Source: Nitrospira sp. (GTDB taxonomy: Bacteria > Nitrospirota > Nitrospiria > Nitrospirales > Nitrospiraceae). Taken from it: a DNA stretch of 64,000 bases. A model generated the notes under the pieces. It was not told the DNA's origin. It saw only the letters and a program-made list of their open reading frames with translations, and did not search any database. The stretch spans positions 1-64,000 of the forward strand of contig JACOEL010000019.1 of the NCBI GenBank assembly GCA_024998625.1. The letters run 5' to 3'. Within the stretch, counting starts at the first letter, position 1. The number at the start of each line of letters is the position of its first letter. Below, one piece after another: positions 34,990 through 53,270 of this stretch. Both the position numbers and the translations under genes were made by a program.

Positions 34990-36919
34990 GCTTCAATGGG
35001 GCCACGGCATCTGAGCCGTGGAATCCGGATGTGGTGGATGCCTCATTCGTGGGATTCAAGTTGCTTCAATGGGGCCACGGCATCTGAGCCGTGGAATCAC
35101 GTCGCCAGCGTGATCGAACAAGCCACATGAATAAATGCTTCAATGGGGCCACGGCATCTGAGCCGTGGAATCCCGATGTGCGCGGCGAAGAATTCGTGCT
35201 CGATGGTCGGGGCTTCAATGGGGCCACGGCATCTGAGCCGTGGAATCGCAGCCGATCGCGCTCAAAAACTGGGGCGTCTCCGGCTTCAATGGGGCCACGG
35301 CATCTGAGCCGTGGAATCGTGAAGGTCGAGAACTACCGCATCGTGGAGGAACTGCTTCAATGGGGCCACGGCATCTGAGCCGTGGAATCATCGTGACCGG
35401 CGCTTTTCTCGGCGAGGGGATAGGCGCTTCAATGGGGCCACGGCATCTGAGCCGTGGAATCCCGATGGGCGACCGATTCCATCCGACAACAGAAGCGCAC
35501 GCTTCAATGGGGCCACGGCATCTGAGCCGTGGAATCAGAAGGCTGATACGAGTGGAGATCATCTCTATGACGAGCTTCAATGGGGCCACGGCATCTGAGC
35601 CGTGGAATCCGGACAGCATCGAGGGGTTTGACGCCGCGCTGCTCGCTTCAATGGGGCCACGGCATCTGAGCCGTGGAATCTCGACCGCCCCGAGCCGGCC
35701 GCCGTCAGCTCGTTCTCGACGCTTCAATGGGGCCACGGCATCTGAGCCGTGGAATCCGCCTCGCGTCGTCCATCGTCGCCTCCGTCTTAGTCGCTTCAAT
35801 GGGGCCACGGCATCTGAGCCGTGGAATCACGGCTATTATCTGGGGTTCGCCGGCGCGACGGTGAGGCTTCAATGGGGCCACGGCATCTGAGCCGTGGAAT
35901 CTGGGATTGCGCCGTGCTGGATGAATCCCATCGGATCGCTTCAATGGGGCCACGGCATCTGAGCCGTGGAATCCGTGTTCAGGTCGCTGCAGGACGCCAC
36001 GATCCAGGGGCTTCAATGGGGCCACGGCATCTGAGCCGTGGAATCAGCCTATGGGAACGACCAACGTCACCAATCCTCTCGTGGCTTCAATGGGGCCACG
36101 GCATCTGAGCCGTGGAATCATCGAAGTTCAGGATGGCGACGGACACATTGCCACGGCTTCAATGGGGCCACGGCATCTGAGCCGTGGAATCCACGCACGG
36201 CCAGAAAGATGTCGGTGTAATGCGGCTTGCTTCAATGGGGCCACGGCATCTGAGCCGTGGAATCGCCTGTTCGCTGGCCGCCTCGTCCTTCACGGAGTGC
36301 GCTTCAATGGGGCCACGGCATCTGAGCCGTGGAATCGACGGCCCGCTGATGGAGCGCACCTCGCCCACGGTCGTGCTTCAATGGGGCCACGGCATCTGAG
36401 CCGTGGAATCTTGAACGACGCCAGCGCGGACTACCGGGAGCCACGTGGCTTCAATGGGGCCACGGCATCTGAGCCGTGGAATCAGCTCGCCAACAGCACG
36501 GTCAGCGGCAACATCGGCACGCTTCAATGGGGCCACGGCATCTGAGCCGTGGAATCAGTCCCGGCGCCTGGCTGTACCAGGCTTGCTGCAGCTGGCTTCA
36601 ATGGGGCCACGGCATCTGAGCCGTGGAATCGATTGGTGACGTTGGTCGTTCCCATAGGCTCCTACGCGCTTCAATGGGGCCACGGCATCTGAGCCGTGGA
36701 ATCGATCCCGAGCGTCGCTGAGGCGGTGCCGAGCTCTTGGCTTCAATGGGGCCACGGCATCTGAGCCGTGGAATCTCCCAGGCCTGCGCCACCCGCGTCC
36801 GCTTCACCCACGCTTCAATGGGGCCACGGCATCTGAGCCGTGGAATCTGGCCGTTATGGCACCGACCAATGGCCAGGATGGGCGCTTCAATGGGGCCACG
36901 GCATCTGAGCCGTGGAATC
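34990..36919 (-). CRISPR. Type I-G (I-U) CRISPR array, 27 repeats and 26 spacers
   Basis: Twenty-seven copies of a 36-base repeat (plus strand GCTTCAATGGGGCCACGGC followed by ATCTGAGCCGTGGAATC), all seemingly identical, alternate with spacers of 35-40 bases. The repeat holds a 7-bp stem, CCACGGC-ATCTGA-GCCGTGG. On the minus strand the repeat ends ATTGAAGC, typical of an 8-base crRNA handle, so transcription runs leftward, away from cas2, and new spacers should enter at the right end near 36919. Spacers at 36046-36083 and 36631-36667 share 30 bases in opposite orientation. First repeat 34990-35025, last 36884-36919. Confidence 0.98.
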
Positions 36920-37131: not shown

Positions 37132-37422
37132 TCACATGACGCGAGCCCGTCGCTCTTCCCATTCGGCCTTGATGCCCATGGACTCGATCCGCTTGACCGG
37201 GTGGCTCTCCGTCGGTCCCAGATCGATAATGAGCACCTGATCTTCTCGCTGATCGATGATTTCCGTCAAGGCGGCCTTCATTCGCACCAGATCAATATCC
37301 GGCAGATCACATTGAAACACGGAAAATTGGAGATGCGCTCCGAAGCCTTTCATGGTCTTAAACACGCGCCGCAAACGCTTGGCATCACAGATATCGTAGG
37401 TGACCAGGTAGTGGCGACGCAT
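37132..37422 (-). CDS. cas2: CRISPR integrase subunit Cas2
   Basis: A 96-residue Cas2. It begins MRRHYLVTYDICDAKRLRRVF, the first beta strand with the family Asp in YDI, followed by KGFGAHLQFSVFQCDL and DQVLIIDLG. Cas2 dimers bridge two Cas1 dimers in the spacer-insertion complex. The gene is three bases after cas4-cas1, and its stop faces the array leader. Confidence 0.95.
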   Translation of the reverse strand: MRRHYLVTYDICDAKRLRRVFKTMKGFGAHLQFSVFQCDLPDIDLVRMKAALTEIIDQREDQVLIIDLGPTESHPVKRIESMGIKAEWEERRARVM

Positions 37423-37425
37423 GTC

Positions 37426-39126
37426 TTACCTTGTGGTAAACGGAGGCAGTTCAGGAATTTCTCCGAGTAAATAACGTCCCAGCAACCGGGCCTGCACTTC
37501 CAGCACTCGGCGGTAACTGATCTGATATCCGAACACCGGGTGGGTAATCTCCTGGCCCATGCGCCGCTCGTAGGTTTCGATCAAGCGACGGCGGCCCTCC
37601 GGCGTGAGCGTGACTGATCCCATGCGTTCAAACCAATCGCTCTGCTGAATCTCGCCGTTGTTGATAGCGGTCAGGACAGCGGAATCGGCAATGAGCGGAC
37701 GGAATTCTTCCATCATGTCGAGTGCCAAGGCCGGTCGCCCGTAGCGCGGTTGGTGATAAAAACCCAAATAAGGATCGAGCCCCACGCTCTGCAGGGTGAC
37801 GGTCCACTCGCGCGCCAGCATGGAATAGAGCAGCGACAGCATGGCATTGACTGGGTCACGTGGCGGGCGGCGATTGCGCCCGTCGAAATCGAAACGTGCC
37901 CCAGGCTCGGCCTCTTTCAACATGCCAGAGAATTCTGAAAAATACCGGCGTGCCGCTGTGCCTTCCACGCCCAGGAGTGACTCCAGGGATTCAGTGACAC
38001 CGGCGTGGGTCTGATCATTTTTCAGATCCTGAATGACCGTGTCCGGCGCCGCCCGGTGATTACGCCGCAGCAACGTACGACAGTTGGCAATCTTAGCCTG
38101 CACGAATCGCCTCGCGAGTTGCAGACAGCGTTCACGATCTGCCGCAACTGCGTATTGCCTCCGTCGAAGCTCCACATGTTTGTGCAGCAAGCCGGTCGTC
38201 ATGCCGTAGAACCAACCGCCGCTGGAACAGTACACCAGCGGAATATTGCGCTTGCAGAGTTCCTGTACCACCTGCGTGCTCACCTGCACCGCGCCGTACA
38301 GCACAACTTGCGACGTTTCGACCAGCCTGGCTTCGCCGATCACGTCATCGTGATCTTTGACCTTCAAGCACTCCCCGTCTTTGCCCAGCTTCGCGCCGGG
38401 TGTCTGGATATAGAGCGGCAAGGCATCGTCGTTGGTGGGGATGAGCTTTCGAAGCACCGGCATGTCGTCATTGTGCGGTTGCCGTAACCAGCCAACCTCG
38501 TCCGGCAGACAGAGGCCTACGAGCGAGCAACGCGGGCACTTGGGGCTGTCTACCAAGGGCGGCGGCGCAATCGTTGCCTGCGTCATTGTCCGCATGCCGT
38601 CGAGGAGTTCCTGCGTCCGCGTAACCAACTCATCGTCGAACGGCACTTCCACTCGCTCGCGCGAGCCGACAAAGTAGAGCACTCCGCGCTCGCAGGTGAA
38701 GCCTTGTTCACGAAGCAACAACCCCTGCACACAGAGTTGTACCCTTTCCGGTTCCCACGCGCCTTGCGCCGTATGCGGCCGCTTGCCGCGCTTGTAGTCC
38801 ACTGGAACGACCGCCTGGCCCTCGCCTTCGACGAGGTCGATCTTGGCCGTCACACCGAGGCCCTCCGAAGACAACCAGACGGAGCGTTGATGGATCGTGG
38901 TTTCTCCCGACTCCTGACTCTCAGTCTGTCTCGATTTCCGGACCGGTGCCTGGTCCACGCGCCGGTGGTGAAATCGCCCCTCGGTGGTTTCCGCGTTGTC
39001 GGCGAACTCCCCGTCTACCCACTCGAAGTAGGCCAGACGTGGGCAGTAGGCACACTCGTTGACCATCCGGGCGGGGAGCAACGGGATGTCGCCCCCCGTG
39101 GATGGCCCCTGTGATTCAGTGTCCAT
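37426..39126 (-). CDS. cas4-cas1: Cas4-Cas1 fusion protein
   Basis: A 566-residue fusion typical of type I-G (I-U). Residues 1-215 are Cas4, a RecB-type nuclease with an iron-sulfur site (NECAYCPRLAYFEW near the N-terminus and CPRCSLVGLC near residues 198-207), an Asp/Glu-Lys core (VDLVEGEGQAVVPVDYKRGK). Residues about 245-566 are Cas1: VVLYGAVQVSTQVVQELCKR, SLLGVEGTAARRYFSEF (metal Glu), GFYHQPRYGRPALALDMMEEFRP (His and Asp). Cas4 selects PAM-bearing ends; Cas1 inserts them. It is followed by cas2. The fusion rather than separate genes fixes the subtype. Confidence 0.96.
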   Translation of the reverse strand: MDTESQGPSTGGDIPLLPARMVNECAYCPRLAYFEWVDGEFADNAETTEGRFHHRRVDQAPVRKSRQTESQESGETTIHQRSVWLSSEGLGVTAKIDLVEGEGQAVVPVDYKRGKRPHTAQGAWEPERVQLCVQGLLLREQGFTCERGVLYFVGSRERVEVPFDDELVTRTQELLDGMRTMTQATIAPPPLVDSPKCPRCSLVGLCLPDEVGWLRQPHNDDMPVLRKLIPTNDDALPLYIQTPGAKLGKDGECLKVKDHDDVIGEARLVETSQVVLYGAVQVSTQVVQELCKRNIPLVYCSSGGWFYGMTTGLLHKHVELRRRQYAVAADRERCLQLARRFVQAKIANCRTLLRRNHRAAPDTVIQDLKNDQTHAGVTESLESLLGVEGTAARRYFSEFSGMLKEAEPGARFDFDGRNRRPPRDPVNAMLSLLYSMLAREWTVTLQSVGLDPYLGFYHQPRYGRPALALDMMEEFRPLIADSAVLTAINNGEIQQSDWFERMGSVTLTPEGRRRLIETYERRMGQEITHPVFGYQISYRRVLEVQARLLGRYLLGEIPELPPFTTR

Positions 39127-39242
39127 AACACCCCTATCGGTCAGAGGTCTGGAAATATTCAGTTGTCAAAGAACCGTCAACGCCTGAAGAGATCAGACGT
39201 TCTGTTATAAGGAATGCCATTGTCAGAATTCGGGAGGCCCAC

Positions 39243-39446
39243 ATGGAATATCCGATCGTCATCGAACCAGACCTCGAGGCCGGCGGTTATGTCGTGTCCT
39301 GTCCGACCTTGAAAGGATGCATTTCACAAGGCGAGACCGAAGAGGAAGCCTTGGAGAACATCAAGGATGCTATCAAAACCTACCTCGAAAGCATCGAGGA
39401 TCTGAAGCGCCTCAAAAAGTTACGCACTGTCGAAGTCAGCGTATGA
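39243..39446 (+). CDS. hicB: HicB-type antitoxin, copy 2
   Basis: A 67-residue HicB-like protein nearly identical to the one at 33121, with changes such as KGCISQGE for KGGVSQGE. It lies on the plus strand between the divergent cas4-cas1 gene and the end of the large helicase gene. A 22-codon frame follows at 39443-39511 (MTKLPQILEAAEI, ending FKELL), overlapping the stop by four bases as hicA would, but it is too short to be HicA. The same short start follows copy 1. Both copies and their flanks form imperfect direct repeats of about 230 bases. Confidence 0.8.
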   Translation: MEYPIVIEPDLEAGGYVVSCPTLKGCISQGETEEEALENIKDAIKTYLESIEDLKRLKKLRTVEVSV

Positions 39447-39560: not shown

Positions 39561-39640
39561 CTGCGCGCCATGTATTCCCGGGCGGGCATCCCAGGGTACT
39601 GGATCGTCAATCCCGCCGATTGCTGTCTGGGGGTGACTCA
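39561..39640 (+). pseudogene. Uma2-like (DUF820) nuclease remnant
   Basis: The plus strand reads MYSRAGIPGYWIVNPADCC, which matches the core of Uma2-family PD-(D/E)XK proteins (pattern YxRAGIPEYWIVN). Nothing else of the family is seen before or after. The interval 39512-39708 is otherwise empty and separates hicB copy 2 from the helicase stop. A short decayed remnant is the best reading. Confidence 0.45.
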
Positions 39641-39708
39641 ACGCATACTCATCGCTCATCACAGTTAGAACTTGCTCCCTCTACGAGTCATACGTAACTC
39701 CGGCCGTT

Positions 39709-42700
39709 CTACGCTTGCGGCGGCTCGCGCCTTTGGGAAGAGCAAGCGGCCAGCTGTTTGTTGATAGACCGTTCCAGTTTCTCGGTTTCCCGTTCTGGGT
39801 CGATCCACCAGTCCGTTGACCATACCCGATGCAGCGTCCAGCCCAGACCTTCCAGAACGAATTGACGTAATCGATCCCGGTCACGTGCAGTGGGCAACGA
39901 GTGGTATGTCGCCCCGTCGCACTCAACGCCCAGAAGATATTTTCCCTGCTCGTGCGGATGAACGACGGCCATGTCGATCCGGTAGCCGGAACAGCCGACC
40001 TGCGGATGCACGGTCCAGCCTTTGCTACGCAAGGCGCGGATAATCTCGGTTTCCAGCGGACTCTCAGGCTCCAGACCTGTCGGTAGAACCTGCTCTACGA
40101 TGGCGCGTGGACCTTTGATAGCGAATTCGAGGTAATTTTTCAGATCGGTGACGCCTGCCGAGCGGGTTTTCGATAGATCGATGTCGTCGGGCCGGATGGA
40201 ACTGAAGATCGTCACGCCGGTCCGTGCCCTGGTGATTGCGACGTTCAACCGGCGCTGTCCGCCTTCCTGGTTTATCGGGCCGAAATTCATGGCCATTTTC
40301 CCTGCAGCGTCTTTCCCATAAGTAATCGAGAACAGGATGAGATCGCGCTCGTCACCCTGCACGTTCTCGAGGTTCTTGATGAACAGCCGTTCCGATCCAT
40401 GCTCCGCGATGCGCTGCTCAATCTCGGGATGCTTGCGCAATTCCTCGTCCAGCAGCGTTTCGATGAGTCGCTGCTGAGTCTGGTTGAACGTCACCACCCC
40501 CATCGTCAGTTTTCGCCGCGACTCATCAGAAAAGTGCGCGACGATTTCTTTCACGATGGCGTCGGCTTCGGCCCGGTTCGTACGGGCGGCGCCCCGATCG
40601 TAAATACCGCCCACCAGATTCAGTTTCACCGCCAGGTCATTCGTAACGGGGGACGGAAAAGTGATCAATCTGGAATCATAGTAGCGGTGGTTCGAAAACG
40701 TGATCAGGCTTTCGTGGCGACTGCGATAGTGCCATTCCAGCCGTATGGCCGGGAGTCCGGCCCCCAGGCATTCATCCAGTATGCTTTCCAGATCCTGGAC
40801 CGGTGCGTCTTCTTCATTACCCAGAGCGGTATTTTCGGCATCGTCTGCCCGATTGAAAAAGTTGGTGGGAGGAAGTTGCTTGGGATCGCCCACCACGATG
40901 AGTTGCTTGCCGCGCGCGATGGCGCCGACCGCGTCCCAGACAGGAATCTGGGACGCTTCGTCGAACACCACCACGTCGAAGTTCGAATGCGCAGCGTCCA
41001 GGTATTGCGCGACCGAGAGCGGCGACATGAGCAGGCACGGTTTGAGCCTTGGAAGCAAGTTGGGAATGCGGTGGACCAGTTGCCGCACCGGCAGGTGCGC
41101 TCGCTGCTTTGCCAGCTCGCGCAACACAAGGGCCATTTCCTGGTCGGGTCTTTGCCCCGCCTGCTGCCGTGGCACCTTTCCCGCCAGGACTGCCACGATA
41201 TATTGCTCGGTAAGTTTCTGGAACCGTTCGTCGGCCTGCCGGAACTCGAGGATTTTCCGGTCGTGATCGGCGCTCGCGAAATTGCGCAGGGCCGGTTCGC
41301 GGTCAATCACGGCCTTTAACCACCAGCTCTGGTAAGAATACTCGGCATAGGCATAGAGATCCTGGGAAGATGTCCGGTCCTCCTCCAGAGCCCGAACGAC
41401 AGCTTCCAGTCCAGCAGACAGAGCCTGTCCACGCAACTGCCTCCACCGGCACCACAACCTCAGCCAGCGACGGAACGAGATCCATCCGCTCATAATTGCT
41501 TTTATCCGGCTGGGCAGCCCCGCGACGGTAGGTCCTTCTGCCAACGCCTGCCCGGCACATGAAAGTTCAGCGACGGTTGCGATCTGATTCTTGAAGGCAT
41601 GCCAGGCATCGCGGAATGCAGTCAGGCTACCGCTGACCGTGCCTGTAGGAAGAAGCAGGTTACGCTGTTCGCTGACTAGCGTGCGCAACTGCTTGGTCAT
41701 AGCGACCATGGTAGTCTGGTCGTCACCATTCGCGAACCGTCCAATCGCTTCCTCGAAGCGGCTTCCCCATTGCTCGTACCGCTGCACTGCCGCCCAGTCT
41801 GTGTCCGTGCCTTTGTATTCGGAGTCCAGTAGTTCGAGGCATTGGATCTCGGAAGACTTCATTGCCTGATCTTCAATATTCAACCCGCGCAGGGCTTCAA
41901 GCAGGGCTGGCATTTCTTCCGCTGCCGGTCGCTTTTGATCGATGGTATAGAGCGCCAGGCAACCGGCTACAGCTCGCTGTGCGAACCATCGCTGTGGCCA
42001 CCAGGTGGCGGACGCCACCCTCCAGTCCTTCGTCAACTGCTCGCCGTTGGCCGCGGAGATCTCCGGCTTGAATTTGCCAGCCAACTGACGCCAATGAGCC
42101 TGCTGACGTTCTCCATGTTCGCGAATGATCTGCATGCGGGCACGAACGGCTGTGTTCCCACCGTGGACGGCGAATCCTTTGGGTACTTGCGGTGCCTGCA
42201 GCAGAACGTCGATCAGTCCGTCGACGGCGTCCAGCAAGGTCGCCGAAGGCGCATCCAGCTTGATGCCCAGTACCGGAGCAATGGCAACGGCGACTGCCTG
42301 AAGTCGGTCAGTCGCTGCCTCCAGGGTTGCTGCCTCCTTGAGGAGGCGTTCTTCCCAAGCGTTTGTCCACTCGGTGTGCCACACCAGGGAAAGAGGGTGA
42401 TTGCCGAGGCTGCCCAGCTCGCTCACGACTGACTGCATGGTCCGCACCGTGTCGCGGATTCGGTCGAGCGCTTCCTCGTCATGCGTGTCGGGATCCGCCC
42501 ACGGCATGCGGGCCGGCCTCCACTCGCGATACCGGATTGCGGTGTCAGTTGCCCCTCGCACGGTCAATCCGTTGCGATACCGCTTGTGTAGCGCCCGCAC
42601 GAAATCATTCAGGTCGGCGCGCAGCCTACCGACGCGTTCCGCCTCGCGCTTCCAGCCAGATGCCGTCTGACCTTGCGCGGCATCCATTGCCGCCCGCAAC

Positions 42701-45000
42701 TGGGCAAGGACCTCGATCTTGCGCGCCTTGGCCGAATGTAGCTCGAGGCAGAACGGGCCCAGACCGATGTTCTTCAGACGGCGCTCCACGACATCGAGGG
42801 CTGCCATCTTCTCCGATACGAACAACACCGTCTTGCCATGCCCTAGAAAGTGCGCGATCAGATTGGTAATGGTCTGCGACTTCCCCGTGCCGGGTGGTCC
42901 CTCCAGCGCGAAGTCGTGCCCCGCACCGGCGCGGCTAAGCGCATTCAGTTGTGAGGAGTCGGCGAGCAGCGGCGCAAGCAGGCTCTCCGGCGCGTGCCGT
43001 TCGTCGAGGTCTTCACGCTGGGATAGATCTTCACGGATTCCGATCGATTCCCGCAGCCGCTCGATGAGGTGATCAACCACCCGGTTCTGCTTGAGCTGCG
43101 CGGTGCGGTCCTGCAGATCCTTCCACATCAGGTACTTCGTGAAGGAGAAGATGCCGAGGTAGACGTCTTCCTTCACTTCCCATCGAGGAATTTCCTTCAC
43201 CGCGAGGCGGAAGATCTGCCAGATTTTCTTCACATCCACGCCGTTTCCATCTGTCGGCAGAGGATCGAGCCCCCTCAACGTCAACTGGAAATTCTCACGC
43301 AGTAACTGGACCAGGGTCGGATTGACAATGGTTTCGTCGTCGTGCCGCTTAATGGTATAGCCCGTTCGCACCGACTGGCGCGTGAGCGTGACCGGCACCA
43401 GCAGGATCGGGGCGAGATGAGTTTTCTCCGCCCGCTCGTCCTCGGCCCAGCGCAGAAATCCCAGCGCCAGGTAAAGCGTGTTGGCGCCGCCTTCCTCCAA
43501 TCCGAGCCGTGCAGCGCTGTAGATCTCATAGAGTCGTGAATCGAGGACCTTGGGTTCGACGGCGGCGAGCAGTTCCTTCTGCTGCATCGCTTGCTTCGCG
43601 GCGGCCTCGACGGGGTCCTCTCCGGTGCGCTTTGCGGCGACGGCAGCGACACGCGGATCGTCGCCCTGCATGATCTGCAGCAGAGGACGGAACTTCCATT
43701 CCTGTCCGTCGGCGAGGGCGTCTTCCAGGTGCGCCGGGTCCGGCACCCGCAACGGCAGCATGATCTTCGTCGGTTTGAAATTGATCAGGCGGTTGCGCAG
43801 CGTAAGATCGAGCAGTTTCGATTTCCAGCGGGCGAGCCGCCCTTCCGGCGTTTCCGGACGCGCGTTCTCATCGAGCAGGAACGCCTCGCCGTCCAAAGGC
43901 GGCAGCGCCGGCGACGGCTCGATTCCTCGATCATCAACCTGTCCCACCATCTTTTCCTCTGGCGCCGCCGCCTCGACTTTGCTCGGCAGCGGCCTCACCT
44001 GTTCGATGCGTGCGCGCTTGACATCGATTGCAAACAGGAATTCACCTTCCTCCTGCAGGTGCTCCAGCCCGAGCTCGCAGGCCGCGCGCAACGAAGGCCT
44101 TGGCTGGTGGGTCAACACTGTGGTTTCGAACGCAATCAGCTCGCCACTGGCCACCCGCTTGCGCACCGCCTGACCATCGTCGAACGTCGGCGTCGGAAAC
44201 GTCGTGTTGATCAGCCAACAGCCGACCCACGCGTGCCCCTTCTTGATCAGAACGACCGGGTTGAGGCCGGCCTGTTCGAGGCAGGAAGCAAGCAGCATGG
44301 CGAGGTCCATGCAGGTCGCGATGCCGCCCGAGAACACCCGGTCCGGCGTGCGGATCTTCTGGCCGTCATTGGTGAACGAGGCCGGCGGCTCGCTGTAATG
44401 CAGACCAGAGGCTCCGATCGCGCTATAGAGCGCTGAGATCTGCGCCCACACGTCCTCGCGGTTCTTCGACTGGTAGCCGTTCATTGAACGACCGCCGCCA
44501 GCCTTGGCCAGCAGCTCACCGGCCTGGAAGATCATGCGGTCGACGGCTGGATTGTTCGGAAGGGAAAACGCTGCCAGTAATTCAGGCAAGGCACGGGCAC
44601 CGGCCCATTGATCGTAGGCCAGCACGTCCACCGGGTGATCGGTGCGGGCAAGCTCCACTCCCGCCGAACTGACCCGGATGATCACACGGCCGCGCTCAGC
44701 CTCGTTCAGCTCCGCAAGATACTGATGCCGGAACTTCAGGTCCAGCGAATCGACACGCCGCGTTTCCTTCGAGTCCAGACGCTCGAACTGCAGACGCATC
44801 GCATCTGCGAATTCGGGCTCGCAGCACACAGAGATTTCGACATCGCGCAGCGGCTCATCGGCAGCATTGGTGATACTCAGGCTGCGGAGGAGAGGGACGT
44901 TGTTCTGATAGGAGGCGTAGCTGACCGTTGGGTCAGCGAAGATCTGGATGACGGCCGGGGCCTGAGTAGGCTCAGCTCTGTCGGTTGTCCCGTCGTTCAT
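39709..45000 (-). CDS. DUF4011 / SF1 helicase / Vsr-like endonuclease defence protein
   Basis: A 1763-residue protein. Layout: N-terminal region with a transglutaminase-like Cys segment (SGGIATCMDLAMLLASCLE near residue 230, GHAWVGCWL near 255); a DUF4011-type part from about 385 (ARWKSKLLDLTLRNRLINF); an SF1 helicase with Walker A EGPPGTGKSQTITNL near 700, Walker B VVFDEASQIPVWDAVGAI and GDPKQLPPTNFF near 1345-1375, and the C-terminal helicase motifs (ENVQGDERDLILFS, LNVAITRAR); last, an MTES_1575/Vsr-like nuclease (YRIDMAVVHP, LLGVECDGATYHSLPTARDRDRLR). This order matches defence proteins such as Hhe. It lies 35 bases after csb2 on the same strand, within the cas run. No HEPN partner is seen. 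Confidence 0.86.
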   Translation of the reverse strand: MNDGTTDRAEPTQAPAVIQIFADPTVSYASYQNNVPLLRSLSITNAADEPLRDVEISVCCEPEFADAMRLQFERLDSKETRRVDSLDLKFRHQYLAELNEAERGRVIIRVSSAGVELARTDHPVDVLAYDQWAGARALPELLAAFSLPNNPAVDRMIFQAGELLAKAGGGRSMNGYQSKNREDVWAQISALYSAIGASGLHYSEPPASFTNDGQKIRTPDRVFSGGIATCMDLAMLLASCLEQAGLNPVVLIKKGHAWVGCWLINTTFPTPTFDDGQAVRKRVASGELIAFETTVLTHQPRPSLRAACELGLEHLQEEGEFLFAIDVKRARIEQVRPLPSKVEAAAPEEKMVGQVDDRGIEPSPALPPLDGEAFLLDENARPETPEGRLARWKSKLLDLTLRNRLINFKPTKIMLPLRVPDPAHLEDALADGQEWKFRPLLQIMQGDDPRVAAVAAKRTGEDPVEAAAKQAMQQKELLAAVEPKVLDSRLYEIYSAARLGLEEGGANTLYLALGFLRWAEDERAEKTHLAPILLVPVTLTRQSVRTGYTIKRHDDETIVNPTLVQLLRENFQLTLRGLDPLPTDGNGVDVKKIWQIFRLAVKEIPRWEVKEDVYLGIFSFTKYLMWKDLQDRTAQLKQNRVVDHLIERLRESIGIREDLSQREDLDERHAPESLLAPLLADSSQLNALSRAGAGHDFALEGPPGTGKSQTITNLIAHFLGHGKTVLFVSEKMAALDVVERRLKNIGLGPFCLELHSAKARKIEVLAQLRAAMDAAQGQTASGWKREAERVGRLRADLNDFVRALHKRYRNGLTVRGATDTAIRYREWRPARMPWADPDTHDEEALDRIRDTVRTMQSVVSELGSLGNHPLSLVWHTEWTNAWEERLLKEAATLEAATDRLQAVAVAIAPVLGIKLDAPSATLLDAVDGLIDVLLQAPQVPKGFAVHGGNTAVRARMQIIREHGERQQAHWRQLAGKFKPEISAANGEQLTKDWRVASATWWPQRWFAQRAVAGCLALYTIDQKRPAAEEMPALLEALRGLNIEDQAMKSSEIQCLELLDSEYKGTDTDWAAVQRYEQWGSRFEEAIGRFANGDDQTTMVAMTKQLRTLVSEQRNLLLPTGTVSGSLTAFRDAWHAFKNQIATVAELSCAGQALAEGPTVAGLPSRIKAIMSGWISFRRWLRLWCRWRQLRGQALSAGLEAVVRALEEDRTSSQDLYAYAEYSYQSWWLKAVIDREPALRNFASADHDRKILEFRQADERFQKLTEQYIVAVLAGKVPRQQAGQRPDQEMALVLRELAKQRAHLPVRQLVHRIPNLLPRLKPCLLMSPLSVAQYLDAAHSNFDVVVFDEASQIPVWDAVGAIARGKQLIVVGDPKQLPPTNFFNRADDAENTALGNEEDAPVQDLESILDECLGAGLPAIRLEWHYRSRHESLITFSNHRYYDSRLITFPSPVTNDLAVKLNLVGGIYDRGAARTNRAEADAIVKEIVAHFSDESRRKLTMGVVTFNQTQQRLIETLLDEELRKHPEIEQRIAEHGSERLFIKNLENVQGDERDLILFSITYGKDAAGKMAMNFGPINQEGGQRRLNVAITRARTGVTIFSSIRPDDIDLSKTRSAGVTDLKNYLEFAIKGPRAIVEQVLPTGLEPESPLETEIIRALRSKGWTVHPQVGCSGYRIDMAVVHPHEQGKYLLGVECDGATYHSLPTARDRDRLRQFVLEGLGWTLHRVWSTDWWIDPERETEKLERSINKQLAACSSQRREPPQA

Positions 45001-45035
45001 ATGCCTTCCCTGCGGTTTTGTTCTATTTCAAGTCT

Positions 45036-46640
45036 TTATGTGCCATCTGCTACCGGAACGAACTGACCGAGGCCGAAGTGGGAAGAATGGCCCAACGCAA
45101 TAGGGCCACGGACAGGGTTAGGGAAGATCAGTCGAAACGACCCGGCCAGGCGACGGCCTCCGTCGTCTGTCGCTTTGCGACGAAAACGTTGGAATTGAAT
45201 AGGGCGCCACTGTCCGCGAATCCTGAACACGTGGTTCTCATCCCATAGCGGCTCAACAATCACCGCCGATGTTCCCTCTATTACGAGGTCATGCCGTAAG
45301 GAAGCCAGCTGCGCATGAAGATCATCCTGAAGGAACGTGGCACGAGCCTCAGGTGAGCCCAGGTCAACCCGATCCCGTCCCCTTGTTTTGGCGTAGCGGG
45401 TAGCAAGATAGGGTGTCGATGATACCCATATCCTCGACGTTGGCAACGGACCTGGGACATACTCGTTAGATGTCCCCATCCCCAACAGCAGGAGGCGAAG
45501 CAAATGACGCTCTTCACCCTCCCAGCCCATCTTTAATTCTCTAAGGCGGTCGAGTGCACGCCGCTCATCTGGACCAAAACCTGCCGCAGCATAAACCGTA
45601 AGATGGTCCAGACGGCCGTCCCCATCTTCATCAGTCGGTAAATAATAAGCATGGCGGTGGTTGATTAACCGTTGCCCTTGCTGGTCTTTTCCAGACAAGA
45701 CATCGGACCGCCCTCGAATGCCATTCTGCTCTGTCAATCGACCATGAATGCCCATCAACGTACGTCTTGCAGCCTCCGCCACAGACAGGGTGTCAGTAAC
45801 CAGCGGCAGCACGATTGAGTCGAGGGAGTAGCGGATAATTTGAATACGTTGGCGATGAGCTGTTGGTCTCAGCCGTGCCTTGGGTTCGATCTTGAAGCAA
45901 TCACGGGGACGGGTGTAGGGCACCCAGCGCGAACCAGGCGGGTCAGACCATCGTTCTTTGTGCAATTGAAGGGTCTCCATGCAGAGATTCCACGCAGGGT
46001 CATAGATGGTGGAGCGCTCCTCTACGGTTTGCTTGTTTTTCCCGCGCCCAGCCGTTTCCCTCGTGACGGTGACGACGGAGTCATCGGCAAAGGCGCTCGT
46101 GGGATCAGGACAAAGCAATCTGACAATCTCGTGTTTGGCGGGCGCGTCGCCTTGAAGCCGACGACACATCTGCCCTTTGGTATTGCCTGTTGTATCTTCA
46201 AGATCGGCCTCACACCACGACTCGGACCTTCCAAGTGTATTGAGATTACGAAGGAGGTTAGTCAGCACACTGCGTTGCTCATCATCGAGTATTGCATTCG
46301 GCCATTGGACGCGAAGCGCCGCATCACGGGGGATAGCAACGAAGGTATCAAAGACGAGTGTACGGTCTTCTGGTCCTTTCTTGAACCATGGCATGAAATG
46401 GCGAGTATGGCCTGTTGAAGCAGGAGGCAGAAGAAATTCAGGCGGCTGGGCTAGAGAACGAAGGATCGGCGCGACCCGCTGCTCGGGCAGTTCGTGTAAC
46501 GTGCGCTTCCACACAGCCACAAGCGCGCGCAGAAGCCGCCAGGGTGAAGGAGGCCATTCAACCGCGCCTTCATTGACGTGTCGTCCCCACGGTGTCGCGT
46601 GATAGCGACCTGCAAGAAACTTAATAGATATTGTGATCAT
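45036..46640 (-). CDS. csb2: Type I-G Cas5-Cas6 fusion, Csb2
   Basis: A 534-residue Csb2 (GSU0054 family). The N-terminal part starts MITISIKFLAGRYHATPWGRHVNEGAVEWPPSP, the family start, followed by WRLLRALVAVWKR. The C-terminal part contains the Cas6-like end with QFVPVADG and Gly-rich segments. Csb2 combines the Cas5 role (binding the crRNA 5' handle) and Cas6 (cutting pre-crRNA). Its start overlaps the csb1 stop by four bases. Confidence 0.92.
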   Translation of the reverse strand: MITISIKFLAGRYHATPWGRHVNEGAVEWPPSPWRLLRALVAVWKRTLHELPEQRVAPILRSLAQPPEFLLPPASTGHTRHFMPWFKKGPEDRTLVFDTFVAIPRDAALRVQWPNAILDDEQRSVLTNLLRNLNTLGRSESWCEADLEDTTGNTKGQMCRRLQGDAPAKHEIVRLLCPDPTSAFADDSVVTVTRETAGRGKNKQTVEERSTIYDPAWNLCMETLQLHKERWSDPPGSRWVPYTRPRDCFKIEPKARLRPTAHRQRIQIIRYSLDSIVLPLVTDTLSVAEAARRTLMGIHGRLTEQNGIRGRSDVLSGKDQQGQRLINHRHAYYLPTDEDGDGRLDHLTVYAAAGFGPDERRALDRLRELKMGWEGEERHLLRLLLLGMGTSNEYVPGPLPTSRIWVSSTPYLATRYAKTRGRDRVDLGSPEARATFLQDDLHAQLASLRHDLVIEGTSAVIVEPLWDENHVFRIRGQWRPIQFQRFRRKATDDGGRRLAGSFRLIFPNPVRGPIALGHSSHFGLGQFVPVADGT

Positions 46641-47656
46641 TCGTTCTCGCCTTCATCGTCTGCCGTATTTTCATCGACAGATTCGTCTTCGCCCTGGTCC
46701 TTCTTAGCCCTGGATTTTTTGTTCTCAGGCTTCCATTCGACGTTCGTGACGGAGGGGGCGGCAAACAGAGGCTTGCACGTCGTGATCAGCCTCTTACATT
46801 CATTAAGAAGAGCCTTCTCGTCGGCAATCACAAACTCCTTTGGCCGTGTGACTGTCAAATCACCATCCACTTCTAGGTCACATGCCGTGCGCAAACGCAG
46901 CCCAGTGGAGAGAAAACGGCGGACCTTAAAAAGCGAAAGGGCGATCAGAAGATTGGTCGCATCAGCGCTCAGACCGTGGCCGCGGAGCAACGCTAGGTCA
47001 AGGTTGAAGTATGCCTTGATCTCCTTGGCAACAAATTCAGTGCGATGAAAAGGAACGTTTCCTTCTCCCCCTTTCAGGTCCGGTTGGACAATATTATTTT
47101 TCACACCTCCGCTCTCAGCAACTAGGACATCGCGTGCTTCAACAAACCCAGAGAGGGCTCTTGTCACGCGCAGACGTCCTCCGATTTCCTCCAAAAAGCA
47201 GCCATGAATAAGGCTGTTCGGATCGTACTTAAACAGACTCGAATGAAACCTTTGCCAATCAACGCGACCATCTTTTTCGTACCTGATTTCATTCGCAAAT
47301 CTGTCATGAAAATTTCTCGCATACTCTGAGTTGATGCGATGCGCTTCCAACAGCGAGTTACTCAGTTGTCCATTGTTAGCGGCAATAATCTTGAGATATG
47401 GGAGTCCCTGCAGGTCTGAGATGAGGTCTTGCACGGCAGTCTCCCAACAAGCCAGCTCCATCCGGTTGGCGACGGACTGGACGGATTCGACCAAAAGCAT
47501 CTCAGTCCCATCTGGAAGTGTGTAGCGCGCTGGGCCGAGATCGGCAAAGCCTGTCGGCTGGAAACGATGCCCCTGAATGGGCTTGAGCCTTGCTTCCATG
47601 AGCAAGCGCGGAGCATCTTGAAGCGTTTCATAGTCGATCTTCCATTCTGTCGCCAT
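46637..47656 (-). CDS. csb1: Type I-G Cas7 backbone subunit, Csb1
   Basis: A 339-residue Csb1 (Cas7u). The ribosome-binding site GGAGGGAC is too near the first ATG (47662) and at a good distance from 47656, so I choose MATEWKIDYE. Family text includes LKPIQGHRFQPTGFADLGPARY, LLVESVQSVANRMELACW and THRINSEYARNF-like stretch EAHRINSEYARNF. The C-terminus is acidic. Csb1 copies coat the crRNA in the Cascade complex. It lies 22 bases after csx17. Confidence 0.93.
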   Translation of the reverse strand: MATEWKIDYETLQDAPRLLMEARLKPIQGHRFQPTGFADLGPARYTLPDGTEMLLVESVQSVANRMELACWETAVQDLISDLQGLPYLKIIAANNGQLSNSLLEAHRINSEYARNFHDRFANEIRYEKDGRVDWQRFHSSLFKYDPNSLIHGCFLEEIGGRLRVTRALSGFVEARDVLVAESGGVKNNIVQPDLKGGEGNVPFHRTEFVAKEIKAYFNLDLALLRGHGLSADATNLLIALSLFKVRRFLSTGLRLRTACDLEVDGDLTVTRPKEFVIADEKALLNECKRLITTCKPLFAAPSVTNVEWKPENKKSRAKKDQGEDESVDENTADDEGENE

Positions 47657-47678
47657 CACCATGTCCCTCCTTCAACAG

Positions 47679-50189
47679 TCATTCGTACACTGGTATTAAT
47701 CTCTTCACCTTGGTCTCATCACCATAAACGATGAGCCGAACCAATTGATTCACGGCCTCGTCAGTAATCGGGATGAGGAGCGCCGCTGCCAGCCGCCGCA
47801 AGTCCAGCCCAGCAATACCCATACGATCCAATTCTCGCCAATCATCGTCACGAACACGATGACCACGAATCGGCTTCGGCATCGGGGCGAGGCCAGAAGC
47901 ACGGAGACGTCGTATGGCAATGATGCACGCTTCGCCTAGCCGTCCCGCGCGAAGCAAAGGCAGGATGGATGATTCGGGGCGGATGATAACCCCTCCTGTT
48001 TCGTTGCGTCGCAGTAAACGAGCGAACAGGGTCCCATCAGTCTGTTGCTCCACGAAAAGCGGTCGAGGCAGAAAGAGCAGTTTCAATAATGCGTAGGCCC
48101 GCACCACTAACGCGTCATCTGTTCTTTGACGAACTTGGTTCCGATGGCCTCGGTCCTCCATCAACATCAGTCCCCACAGCAAATCGCTGATACGTTGGTG
48201 ATCGAGTTCGCCGGCGAGGAAAGCCTCAACTATGTCCAACGATACCGCGAGGCGGGAAGTTAGAGGGAGTTGCGTACACCCAGATCTTTGACCATCCATC
48301 ATCCGCCGTTGGAGAACATCAGCCAGATTGATTGCTAAGTCGCCGGCGTTCCAGACGACAGCACGGTCCCTTTCGGCCCAAGCGCGGCAGCGCTTCTTCC
48401 AATCTACGGATTCGAGGTTAGCCCGGAACGGGCCGATTTTCACTTCTGGGTCATGAATGGAAACCAGTGCACACGCAGCGGCGAACTCTGCCGAACCGTC
48501 ATCGGCTGCGCGCATCCATTCTGAAGATAATTGCGAGATCGGATTTACAGACTTTCTTTTAAACTGTCCTTGCGTAACGGCAAGCTCCCGCTCAGCCTGT
48601 CCAAGAGCGATGATAATTTCTTGAAAGAGTCGAGGCCCGCCGTACTTGCAGAACTCAAAAATAGCCGAGTCAATGCCGTTGAGCGTCAAAAGAATACGCT
48701 TCGGAGCTTCCTCCTTGTCACGACCCCGAGCACACTTCCACCGAAAATCACCCATCCAGCGGTCAATCTGACGAAGAAGATGGACTTCAGAGCGTCCGAT
48801 AACCTCGAACCGCCCTAGTGGGGCCGCAAAAAAGGCCTTACCACTACGTTTCAGGAATCCAACTCGATTGAATCTCACGATCCCGCGATCGACACCAAGC
48901 TCAGCCACGGCACGGGCAAAATCCGTTCCGTCTCGCGCAGCCCTGCCCGACACTTGTGCTCGTCCTTCGCCAAAGAGCTGGCGAAGCTCGCCGGTGCTGG
49001 TCGGACGTGCCCAGAGGGGAAGCCACACTTCGCCGCGAGACTCGGCTTCATCTTTGGTTGCCGCTGAATCGAACCCTGAAGCCACGGAATGAACCGTGAA
49101 GGGAAATGAAGCGCGAGAATTGCTGACATCGCCAAAGCGTCGAACAACAGCCCCAGCCAGCAATAGAGCCCCTTCCATCATTAAGACGAAATCCCATATA
49201 TTGTCCGTCGAATCACCCTCCATGCCTTGCGTCGCATTTGGCCCACCTGCACGGCCTGGCGCGAACTGGCCCACACTGCCCTTATCAAATGTGGCCGGAG
49301 TTGCAAACAAGGACTGTTTCAACAAAACAACTGACTTGTTATCTATTGCATTTTTCTTATGAAGACCTAGCGCGACGATTCTCTGCATGAAGTTTTGCGT
49401 GAAATCAAGCCGCCCATCATTCCCTCCTGTGCCAAGTAAAGGCGCAAAACCTTGTCCGTCTTGCCGTAACACCATCGCCGCATCCATCCAGGTGACAACT
49501 TCATTGGGCAGCTCTCGCCGATATCGTCGAATAAGGCGTACCTTGTCTTCGTCCTTCGGTTTATCCCCAACGTTTTCTTCTTTGATGATCTTATGGACAA
49601 TCTGGATCGTCTTCGCGTAAAGATCGACCCGTAGCGTTCGACTCTTGCCCAATTCCTCAACTGCCTTCTTATTATCTTTCTTAAAGAAACCAGAGCCTCC
49701 TGCCCAGGGCGCCACAATGGGCGTTGGCTTGTATTCTTCTAGGAAGAATTTCGTTAATGCATTGCGCTTGGCTTCTTCACTGGCTGCCCCTTCGAATAGC
49801 TTTGGTGCCCGCAGCCAGAACACGTCGTTCCTCCACCAACCTCTGGCATCTTTGTCCTTCTGTTCGCTGAGCAACCGTAGGATGCCCAGTGCCTTGAGAT
49901 AGGCCATCAACGGCTCCGGTGTACAGCCTTTCAGCTCCATGTCATGAGCGGCATCGCCATTTCCATACTCAGCTTGAGGTTCTTTTACACTCACACCTTG
50001 CAGAGGTTCGCCGTACTCACCTGACGGTGCTGCACCTAACACTTGCGCTATGTCCTGCATTTCCTCGATGGCGAGCAGGATTTTTTCCAATGGCAATTGT
50101 GCCCAGCGACGAAGCTGTTCGCGGCGCGAGCCCTCGAAGCTGGTCACGCGCCAGTCGAATTCTGGGGTGTGTGGTTTATTTTCCTCCAT
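47679..50189 (-). CDS. csx17: Type I-G large subunit Csx17 (Cas8g)
   Basis: An 836-residue Csx17. Family text includes LKGCTPEPLMAYLKALGILRLLSEQ (N-terminal), PTPIVAPWAGGSGFF, NPISQLSSEWMRAADDGSAEFAAACALVS and, near the end, MEDRGHRNQVRQRTDDALVVRAYALLKLLFLPRPL. It is the large subunit of the I-G effector, in the place Cas8 holds in other subtypes, and should take part in PAM recognition. Its start overlaps the end of the nucleotidyltransferase gene by 14 bases. Confidence 0.92.
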   Translation of the reverse strand: MEENKPHTPEFDWRVTSFEGSRREQLRRWAQLPLEKILLAIEEMQDIAQVLGAAPSGEYGEPLQGVSVKEPQAEYGNGDAAHDMELKGCTPEPLMAYLKALGILRLLSEQKDKDARGWWRNDVFWLRAPKLFEGAASEEAKRNALTKFFLEEYKPTPIVAPWAGGSGFFKKDNKKAVEELGKSRTLRVDLYAKTIQIVHKIIKEENVGDKPKDEDKVRLIRRYRRELPNEVVTWMDAAMVLRQDGQGFAPLLGTGGNDGRLDFTQNFMQRIVALGLHKKNAIDNKSVVLLKQSLFATPATFDKGSVGQFAPGRAGGPNATQGMEGDSTDNIWDFVLMMEGALLLAGAVVRRFGDVSNSRASFPFTVHSVASGFDSAATKDEAESRGEVWLPLWARPTSTGELRQLFGEGRAQVSGRAARDGTDFARAVAELGVDRGIVRFNRVGFLKRSGKAFFAAPLGRFEVIGRSEVHLLRQIDRWMGDFRWKCARGRDKEEAPKRILLTLNGIDSAIFEFCKYGGPRLFQEIIIALGQAERELAVTQGQFKRKSVNPISQLSSEWMRAADDGSAEFAAACALVSIHDPEVKIGPFRANLESVDWKKRCRAWAERDRAVVWNAGDLAINLADVLQRRMMDGQRSGCTQLPLTSRLAVSLDIVEAFLAGELDHQRISDLLWGLMLMEDRGHRNQVRQRTDDALVVRAYALLKLLFLPRPLFVEQQTDGTLFARLLRRNETGGVIIRPESSILPLLRAGRLGEACIIAIRRLRASGLAPMPKPIRGHRVRDDDWRELDRMGIAGLDLRRLAAALLIPITDEAVNQLVRLIVYGDETKVKRLIPVYE

Positions 50190-50685
50190 CGTCTTCCAAC
50201 CTCATACGCAAGTGTTCGATATCGATCCTGTCCTGCTCCCGTCCTGCCACTTCTTTCATCTTAATCAGCGTGGGAATGCTGACGAACCGAACATCGATGG
50301 CCCCATACAGCGGCTTAATCAATGCGTTGGCATACTCCTCCTCAAACGGAAACGGCTCATGTACGAATATGTCAATCGATGTTTCTCGGTGTTGATCGCT
50401 CCAGAGCTGCAATACCTGCATGTTCTTGTCGCGTATCCACCCTTCACGCGTGACTGGATCGGCAAACTGTTCGGCCGTAACCGGCGCCAGCGGTTTATAG
50501 CCAAGTGTCCCCAGCGCGGTAAAAACCCGTTTGACATTGTCCGGTACCAACTGAATGACAAAGTCGGCATCCTTGGTAAAGCGCAGAAAACCATGGGCGT
50601 TCACCGCGAGTCCTCCGGCAATCAGATAACGTACACCGGCCTCGTTGAGTGCACGGACAATGGCTTCGAAGCTGGCTAGCTTCAC
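50176..50685 (-). CDS. Minimal nucleotidyltransferase inside the cas operon
   Basis: A 169-residue nucleotidyltransferase-fold protein. The catalytic strand-turn is AGGLAVNAHGFLRFTKDADFVI (residues about 23-44), with Gly-Gly and the DxD pair (KDADF); a third Asp is in TSIDIFVHEPF near 107. The pattern fits DUF6036/MNT-AbiEii-like transferases, which move an AMP or other nucleotide onto a target. It overlaps cas3 by four bases and csx17 by 14, so it is coupled to both. It is not a standard type I-G gene; no HEPN or AbiEi partner is seen. Confidence 0.82.
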   Translation of the reverse strand: MKLASFEAIVRALNEAGVRYLIAGGLAVNAHGFLRFTKDADFVIQLVPDNVKRVFTALGTLGYKPLAPVTAEQFADPVTREGWIRDKNMQVLQLWSDQHRETSIDIFVHEPFPFEEEYANALIKPLYGAIDVRFVSIPTLIKMKEVAGREQDRIDIEHLRMRLEDDGGK

Positions 50686-53270
50686 GATGCTACCTCCCGT
50701 TTTCCGTGCGGAGATACTGGGTCATGCTGTTTCGCCACTGCTCTCTGTTCCGCATCTCGACTGGCCCTCATATCCGCTGCCCGAAGGATGGCTTCAAGAT
50801 AGGCCAGCCGGAAGGGGCCAAGCGTGTCACGTAAACCGATCATGCGCTCAGCCCATGAAGGTAACCCGTGGAACGGCTCCTCCTCGCACAACCCCAACTC
50901 CATCGGCTCCAGTGAGAGCCTAACAGCTGGCGCAATTACCTCAATACCATTTCCACCTAGGTTTGCAGCAGGAAGCTCATCATCGTCCCATATTCCTCTA
51001 GCAAAACGGCGATTGCTATCTGGACGCTTTTCATTTGGTAGCGAACGGATAGACAGGCGCACCTTCCCATGATGTGAGGCGACGAGATAGGCAACAATGT
51101 CACGTAGTTCGCTGGGAATCTTGTCATTCCGTGGATCGAGGACTGACAGCGCAGAGGCAAGTTCATGGCGAAAGTGCCGACGGTCGTACTTCTTCCATTG
51201 TCCTGGCGCCTTTGCCCAAAATTTTTCAGGATCTGGTGAACCATCGGGCAATGCCTTTCTGAAGACTTCATGCGCCTTTCCTCTATCATGCCAACGCGCC
51301 GCAAGACGAAGTGGTTTTCCTTCGTTCAGTTGTTCGGCTAGCGCGTCCAAGATGTCTTCCACTTCCTGGCAAAGTTCATCCGTATGCTTTGCAATGGTTT
51401 GCCAGACACCGATGTGAGAGAGCGGGTCATTGTCCGTGGCATCTTGGGCATCGCCGCTTGCCTCTACCAGCGACGGAATCGGAACAACTATGGTATTGCT
51501 ATCCGGATGCCAACCCCTTTCCGTCGAATATCCTCTGGCCTTGGCCTGAATCAGAAAGACGTGTCCTGGTGCGACTTTTCCTGCATCGACCTTTTCCCAT
51601 TTTTTATCAAGGAAGTTCCATCGCCAAACCTGACCCATGTGTTTTCTTACGAAGTCTTGGAATTCTTCGATCGGGACGGGACACAATTCATCACGCCGAG
51701 GTGCAGGCTCAGGTTCTTTATCGTCCAACTCATTAGGCGTCTTGTCATAGTCCCGCCAAAAGACGCGCACATCACTTTTCTCGACATCGCGAATGAAACG
51801 ATCGATGTCAATGTCGTTTCCCGCAAGATCCGGCGTGGTGTCAAAGAGATCGATCAGATCCTTGCGGCGTATCACATGCGTGTGTTCAAAGCGTAACGGC
51901 AATGATTGATCGCGTAGAGTTCTCAACCCCACGTCAGACAGTTCTTTCTCGGACAGTTTTTCTAACTGTTCGGCTGCGGTCTTCAGATCCATCAGGTCAT
52001 AGGGGGCAACCACCTTTTCTGCGCCCGAACCCTTCGTCGGCATGGTAATCCAGTGGACCGCGGCACGATCGTTTTCTGCCCCACGTCTATTACATCTGCC
52101 GAATCGCTGGACCAGCGATGCCCATGGGGCCAACTCCGTAAACAAAGTCGTCGCACTGACATCCACGCCGGCCTCAATCACCTGCGTGCTGACGACGATC
52201 GTTCCCGGCTCGTCGGACTTGATCTCCGCAAGTGCTTTGTCCACCTGCTTCTTGCGGTCTCCTGGCCTGAAACGCGAGTGCAGCAGTACGATACGGGGAC
52301 TGGATTCTTTGCCAGCATCCTTGTACAAATCTTCGAGCTTTCCAACCAACGCGCAGGCCCGCTTCACCGTATTGACGATGACGATCGTCCGCGTACCGGG
52401 TTTATGTATGTGGGCCTTGTGAATCTCCTGGGCGAGTCCTGACTCATCGCCCATGACTGCCTTTGTCTTCACCAGCGGCTTCCTGGCCCGCCAACGATCT
52501 TCCAAAGCTTGGCGAGCCTTCTGATTCTGCCCGGAATTGTTCATCTCTTGCTCAAAATCGAATGCTATCTGCTGCGCCTCATCGAGAAACGGCACAAAGT
52601 CCACGGTCTTGAGCCACTCTCTTCGCAGCGTCGCGGACATCCATACACTTCGACAACCATGGCCGTTCTTGGCTCTATCCGAATCCTTGTCTGGGAGCAA
52701 ACGCCGGAACGCTTCAAGCTGTGTAGTGGTTGCCAGTCCCGTCCCCATCAACTGAATCTCGTCAAACACCCATAGGCAATCCGTGTTGAGCAACCCAAAT
52801 TTAACCGGCCAGCGGGACCGAGTAGCGGCATAGCCACGATTGAGCGCGCGTGAGAGCAACATATCCTGAGTCCCAATAATGATCTGATCGCACTCGGGAT
52901 AAATGTCCCAATCTTCTTCGTCTTCTCCACCCATGAGAATATGGATATTAAGCGGATGTGTCATTTCTTTGGGATAGTGTTTCTCCAGTTCGGCGATCCA
53001 TTTATTTGCTTCACTGGCTGTCTGTTCAACTAACACTCGCATGGGCAAGCAGTACACCAACCGCCTAGGGGTTGCCTTCCTAACTTTCACTTCACCAAAC
53101 CGCCTCCTCCACAGCCACCCCAGCACTGCCATCGCGGTCTTCCCCATCCCCGTCGGCACATCCACAAGCTCAGGTAGCTCCGGTTCACAGGCGAAGCGAA
53201 TCTGGAATGGGTAGGGTTCATTCCCCGTGGCGCGTGCGAACCAGTTTGCAAACTGATGGATTTCACTCAT
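50682..53270 (-). CDS. cas3: Type I-G Cas3 helicase-nuclease with C-terminal HD domain
   Basis: An 862-residue Cas3. The SF2 helicase part comes first: Walker A DVPTGMGKTAMAVLGWLW near residues 38-52, DEIQLMGTG near 168, VNTVKRACALV and QVIEAGVDVSATTLFTELAPWASLVQRFGRCNRRG (motif VI). The HD nuclease comes last, with LAARWHDRGKAHEVFRKALPD near 655-675 and LVASHHGKVRLSIRSLP. HD after helicase, the reverse of the common order, is the mark of I-G Cas3. It is the first cas gene of the operon, and its stop overlaps the nucleotidyltransferase start (four bases). Confidence 0.95.
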   Translation of the reverse strand: MSEIHQFANWFARATGNEPYPFQIRFACEPELPELVDVPTGMGKTAMAVLGWLWRRRFGEVKVRKATPRRLVYCLPMRVLVEQTASEANKWIAELEKHYPKEMTHPLNIHILMGGEDEEDWDIYPECDQIIIGTQDMLLSRALNRGYAATRSRWPVKFGLLNTDCLWVFDEIQLMGTGLATTTQLEAFRRLLPDKDSDRAKNGHGCRSVWMSATLRREWLKTVDFVPFLDEAQQIAFDFEQEMNNSGQNQKARQALEDRWRARKPLVKTKAVMGDESGLAQEIHKAHIHKPGTRTIVIVNTVKRACALVGKLEDLYKDAGKESSPRIVLLHSRFRPGDRKKQVDKALAEIKSDEPGTIVVSTQVIEAGVDVSATTLFTELAPWASLVQRFGRCNRRGAENDRAAVHWITMPTKGSGAEKVVAPYDLMDLKTAAEQLEKLSEKELSDVGLRTLRDQSLPLRFEHTHVIRRKDLIDLFDTTPDLAGNDIDIDRFIRDVEKSDVRVFWRDYDKTPNELDDKEPEPAPRRDELCPVPIEEFQDFVRKHMGQVWRWNFLDKKWEKVDAGKVAPGHVFLIQAKARGYSTERGWHPDSNTIVVPIPSLVEASGDAQDATDNDPLSHIGVWQTIAKHTDELCQEVEDILDALAEQLNEGKPLRLAARWHDRGKAHEVFRKALPDGSPDPEKFWAKAPGQWKKYDRRHFRHELASALSVLDPRNDKIPSELRDIVAYLVASHHGKVRLSIRSLPNEKRPDSNRRFARGIWDDDELPAANLGGNGIEVIAPAVRLSLEPMELGLCEEEPFHGLPSWAERMIGLRDTLGPFRLAYLEAILRAADMRASRDAEQRAVAKQHDPVSPHGKREVAS

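Follow-up and report, generated by a model that had tools for sequence, protein, structure and literature searches.

Does a gene of 1763 codons that lies inside a type I-G CRISPR-Cas locus of Nitrospira belong to CRISPR interference, or is it a passenger there? In the window (the whole stretch of 64,000 nucleotides that was analysed), the minus strand carries cas3g, a nucleotidyltransferase ORF, cas8g, csb1, csb2, the gene in question, cas4-1, cas2 and a CRISPR array, in this order (Table 1). The gene (39709-45000), which starts with ATG and reads open over all its codons, sits between the type I-G effector genes and the cas4-1/cas2/array part. A sequence-only reading had placed it on the strand of csb2, 35 bases behind it and ending before cas4-1, and this placement holds, with a gap of exactly 35 bases. 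The 582 bp that separate it from cas4-1 contain a HicB-like ORF on the opposite strand, a Uma2 fragment and a boxA-like element. Elsewhere in the locus, the N-terminal extension of Cas8g (residues 1-80) is found separate from cas8g in other loci; positions 49950-50189 hold a small partner-like ORF, next after the nucleotidyltransferase ORF, as an in-frame fusion at the N-terminus of Cas8g. This pair occurs also in G398 and G427, with pieces in G206, G202 and G125. A plus-strand ORF at 54366-55277 has a weak caspase-like (EACC1-associated) match, at 32 bits versus a cut-off of 140.

Table 1. Features of the type I-G locus and domains of the inserted protein (res, residues of the respective protein)
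Feature	Positions	Strand	Basis
cas3g	50682..53270	-	TIGR02621
Nucleotidyltransferase ORF, between cas3g and cas8g	50176..50685	-	DUF6036/AbiEii-like, both below cut-off
cas8g / csx17, foreign N-terminal extension res 1-80	47679..50189	-	TIGR04113 matches res 85-820
csb1 / cas7g	46637..47662	-	TIGR02570
csb2 / cas5-6g	45036..46640	-	TIGR02165
Junction: csb2 3' tail and ProA-type upstream sequence	45001..45080	-	Comparison with L032, G206
ProA-family anti-phage gene, 1763 aa	39709..45000	-	NCBIfam NF058533 2128.8 bits; PADLOC PDC-S37 1264 bits
Ig-like beta-sandwich, res 20-130	44611..44943	-	AlphaFold model res 20-645
Transglutaminase-like (TGL) domain, res 128-336, C230/H256/E292	43993..44619	-	Domain model and structure matches
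DUF4011, res 395-567	43300..43818	-	Pfam PF13195 E 3e-46
SF1 helicase first part, Walker A GPPGTGKS 701-708	42601..43083	-	Pfam, alignment, solved relatives
SF1 helicase second part, Walker B FDEAS 1346-1350, Upf1/Sen1-like	40201..41043	-	Pfam, alignment, solved relatives
REase MTES_1575, Vsr-type nuclease, res 1650-1746	39763..40053	-	Pfam PF18741 E 5e-38
Uma2-like fragment	39567..39641	+	25 aa, 64% to G141 Uma2 ORF
HicB-like antitoxin ORF, relic or intact	39243..39446	+	PF15919 E 3e-12
boxA-like antitermination element before cas4-1	39156..39173	-	Motif comparison, 20 other loci
cas4-cas1 fusion (cas4-1)	37426..39126	-	NF049935
cas2	37132..37422	-	TIGR01573
CRISPR array, 27 repeats of 36 bp	34990..36919	-	Repeat count

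The family of the protein is clear. It exceeds the equivalog cut-off of NCBIfam NF058533, "anti-phage protein ProA", by more than 600 bits (2128.8 versus 1500), matching model positions 1-1716 of 1903, and PADLOC assigns it to PDC-S37. A DUF4011/helicase/Vsr-like domain order and a likeness to stand-alone anti-phage proteins had been read from the letters; Pfam (DUF4011, AAA_11/AAA_12, REase MTES_1575) and the ProA cut-off bear out both. The cut-off of Hhe (DUF4011-helicase-Vsr; NF042953) is missed at 914.6 versus 2000 bits, although helicase, DUF4011 and nuclease are in common. The window protein differs from ProA members of about 2000 aa, such as L041, in that Pfam does not find the C-terminal DUF3320 (model 1717-1903), a domain difference inside the family that is not part of the cut-off criterion, and it differs further by its location in a cas locus. 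As L036 is also without DUF3320 by Pfam, yet unlinked to type I-G within its flanks, the absence is not tied to CRISPR linkage. Among named relatives, the nearest to the gene come from Nitrospira MAGs (83-89%), which points to a host within the Nitrospiraceae. In 2013, a stand-alone defence protein was described that combines a transglutaminase, an SF1 helicase and a Vsr nuclease (PMC3710099). The giant HEPN-transglutaminase-SF1 helicase-Vsr-wHTH proteins (MTES_1575), which were proposed to function without modification genes (PMC3710099), combine TGL-like, helicase and nuclease parts in one chain as the window protein does, but have HEPN and wHTH/DUF3320 domains, neither of which Pfam finds in it. 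In the library searched, no paper on ProA itself was found; anti-phage activity of the window protein is predicted from the family name only.

An AlphaFold model of residues 20-645 (pLDDT 86) places an Ig-like sandwich before a transglutaminase-like domain. The former resembles transglutaminase C-terminal beta barrels and other Ig-like domains (Z of about 10). The TGL domain modelled alone (pLDDT 94) finds TGL-fold proteins in nearly all of the matches listed (Z 7-9.5), the best being PNGase 3esw, putative protease 3kd4 and TglA 9crn (Z 9.4-9.5), with a top match that is moderate (Z 9.5, rmsd 3.9 over 156). By these models, residues 128-336 are assigned to the transglutaminase-like superfamily fold; Pfam TGL matches are below cut-off. 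Cys230, His256 and Glu292 are kept in 75-76 of 76 aligned sequences, the Walker motifs and the nuclease residues E1650/D1676/E1693/D1695 are likewise conserved, and every one of these motif residues is intact in the window protein. Among solved structures, the helicase is related to Sen1, Upf1/Nam7 and SMUBP-2. Structure matches of the TGL domain also include Rad4/XPC proteins. The TGL domains of these are DNA-binding and not proteases, and hence a DNA-binding role is an alternative for the domain of the window protein; the conserved putative triad favours catalysis.

Flanking sequence was analysed for 80 relatives of ProA, drawn from Nitrospira, Beta-, Gamma- and Alphaproteobacteria and others. 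In 42 of them each flank reached 9.9 kb or more, and in 69 at least one flank reached 5 kb. A tblastn search with the window Cas proteins, which very divergent cas genes could escape, found an I-G gene in the flanks of none of the 80. At the TIGR02165 cut-off, csb2 was present in only 3 of 50 ProA genomes (two Nitrospira, one Methylobacter); in G108, ProA and the I-G genes are on different contigs. Nor did any of 20 related I-G adaptation modules contain an intact ProA. The suggestion that the protein is an added arm of CRISPR interference is thus unsupported, and the linkage survey proposed along with it turned up no intact csb2-ProA pair elsewhere, and a single junction remnant, in G206, among the 20 other loci. 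Recurrent linkage to cas genes across lineages, by which a Cas or ancillary protein would be recognized, was not found, and in the sequences compared linkage of ProA to type I-G is no family trait. Comparison of neighbouring gene families found no recurrent ProA partner gene beyond close-species synteny. ProA-like proteins are common on plasmids, where 69 records aligned over 80% or more of the query, all below 60% identity. Neither csb2 nor cas8g of the window type was matched there, so the plasmids have no bearing on linkage.

The position between csb2 and cas4-1 is itself informative. It was compared in 20 other loci (19 from Nitrospiraceae, and G181), 21 with the window, chosen by cas4-1 homologues of at least 65% identity. 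Cargo-free junctions from csb2 to cas4-1 measure 85 bp in G181, 121 bp in G097 and 147 bp in G398. Other loci hold MNT-HEPN pairs (G322, G141, G108, G139, G202) or MNT alone (G167), HicB-like ORFs on the other strand (G322, G108, G027, G121, G143, G427, G167, G454, G091) and Uma2-like ORFs (G141, G139, G244, G454), while the window holds ProA, the Uma2 fragment and HicB. By this comparison, the stretch from csb2 to a conserved rrn-type boxA is a variable slot whose passengers (MNT-HEPN, HicAB-like, Uma2, ProA) differ between genomes. The I-G locus of Thioalkalivibrio sulfidiphilus has five genes, including two toxin-antitoxin systems, between Csb2 and Cas4-1 (PMC9638904); since this cargo is at the same position, the slot is not restricted to Nitrospirota. 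It resembles the window in its inserted genes, but the cargo there includes an XPF-like gene and ProA is not named. A CRISPR-guarded toxin-antitoxin arrangement (CreTA-like) was considered for the window and rejected, as a search outside the array for ectopic repeat-like sequences, allowing up to 14 mismatches, found none. The slot of G322 (L123) shows a partial tandem duplication: a second boxA and a 41-aa cas4-1 head precede the intact cas4-1 by about 0.8 kb. In another Nitrospirota family, G047 (L176, 7493-11863, minus strand) encodes an SF1-helicase/MTES_1575 protein with a frame of 1457 codons, in which Pfam does not find DUF4011, between a type III-A effector with an array and cas2-cas1.

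The junction gives some indication of how ProA arrived. Compared with unlinked Nitrospira ProA copies, the window is similar at the DNA level over the gene and roughly the 37 bp that precede it, and the similarity ends near both gene ends; the 37 bp before the ATG are common to the unlinked ProA L032. In G206, from another genus, a csb2-like tail is joined to ProA codons 1-33, followed by unrelated sequence; the remnant matches the window over 171 bp at 85%, with the 80-bp junction in common. This remnant indicates that a second lineage once had the csb2-ProA adjacency and has since lost it. The simplest reading is that a single junction was formed, was spread by recombination and was later truncated in G206. 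Its presence in two genomes, each from a different genus, could mean that it was maintained for some time. Three members of the window's genus (G139, G143, G244) have the same adaptation module, at 91-93%, without ProA; that of G121 is at 96%, on a contig that ends 0.9 kb upstream. Closest relatives differ by module, with the window csb2 nearest to G454 (76%) and cas4-1 to G121 (96%). In many loci, divergent I-G effector modules have cas3g N-terminal pieces upstream and csb2 "HFGLGQF" tails downstream (L163 of G125, L131 of G206, L158 of G427, L153, L156 and L160), traces which suggest that effector modules were serially replaced in front of one stable adaptation block. The unlinked L033 ProA is preceded by a csb2-tail-like stretch with a 13-bp exact match (2 of 1000 shuffles); this copy may also have left an I-G locus, a match too short to claim it.

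Transcription bears on the question as well. The cas4-1 side starts with TTCTTTGACAACTGAATA, and the core motif is found upstream of cas4-1 in all 20 other loci. The exact 16-mer has only two copies in the window's genome and two in G244, the second of which lies 83 bp upstream of 16S rRNA; with this copy and the conserved core, the element is very probably a boxA. Such elements are known upstream of CRISPR arrays, as stated where PMC7862264 cites Stringer et al. 2020. Since boxA directly follows csb2 at the tight junctions, it is plausible that transcription of the effector operon reads through into cas4-1; cargo such as ProA inserts between csb2 and boxA. A scan of 17.6 kb for sigma-70 patterns, which are weak evidence for Nitrospira, gave only two candidate sites, fewer than shuffled sequence; one lies 420 bp upstream, inside csb2, and none is in the csb2-ProA junction. 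A TATAAC-like box before boxA was rejected as a conserved cas4-1 promoter: its occurrences, in 9 of 20 loci, are not independent because most of these share HicB upstream DNA. From the 35-bp gap and the common strand it is plausible that csb2 and ProA are on one transcript.

Our results suggest that ProA is in all likelihood an autonomous, single-gene anti-phage protein carried as cargo, in a type I-G locus whose variable slot has csb2 on one side and the boxA-cas4-1-cas2-array block on the other. A passenger is likelier than a new CRISPR part because nearly all ProA relatives lie elsewhere, without an I-G system. The common strand and the 35-bp gap count against this reading and, together with the position within the cas run, the junction relic in G206 and the different SF1-helicase/MTES_1575 protein next to the type III-A effector in G047, for a functional addition to type I-G that is recruited by the Cascade-like complex or acts on Cas3g products. 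Such a role is nevertheless very unlikely, as no relative among 80 is linked, csb2 is missing from 47 of 50 ProA genomes and 20 other adaptation modules manage without ProA. A more specific form of it, in which ProA made from the I-G operon would be a second effector on Cascade-opened or Cas3g-unwound DNA with the protease-like domain gating the nuclease, strikes us as fainter still.

It is somewhat easier to imagine, although still improbable, that two independent defences are deliberately co-expressed, ProA having gained the cas promoter as a backup layer. The short gap would fit, as would the 37 bp of ProA-type upstream sequence in which the scan sees no promoter-like site; yet consensus scans of this kind are weak for Nitrospira, and those 37 bp arrived with the gene. 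The HicB and Uma2 passengers lie on the opposite strand, so the slot needs no co-expression. Decay is a further explanation to which we give little credence, a shade less than to co-expression: ProA would be cargo without present function, as the fragmentary Uma2 neighbour, the loss in G206 and an interrupted ProA in L077 (stop at codon 882) might indicate. Its 1763 open codons and intact motifs speak against this, as does a pairwise dN/dS of 0.11 versus L033, a value that reflects mainly the time before insertion.

Recombination at the slot adds and removes defence and toxin-antitoxin genes and swaps effector modules, as the comparison of 21 loci shows. ProA probably works alone; read-through from csb2 may contribute to its transcription. 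Judging from its domains and the family name, the SF1 (Upf1-like) helicase would engage foreign DNA or replication intermediates and translocate, the C-terminal Vsr-type nuclease would cut the foreign DNA, and the transglutaminase-like cysteine domain might perform a protein-processing step, e.g., self-activation or cleavage of an effector. In a recombination-prone slot, a gene's place within a cas run is poor evidence of function, even where it follows an effector gene on the same strand after only 35 bp. The comparison also offers a testable picture of a fixed boxA-cas4-1-cas2-array block and interchangeable type I-G effector modules, with a cargo slot for toxin-antitoxin and defence genes between them.
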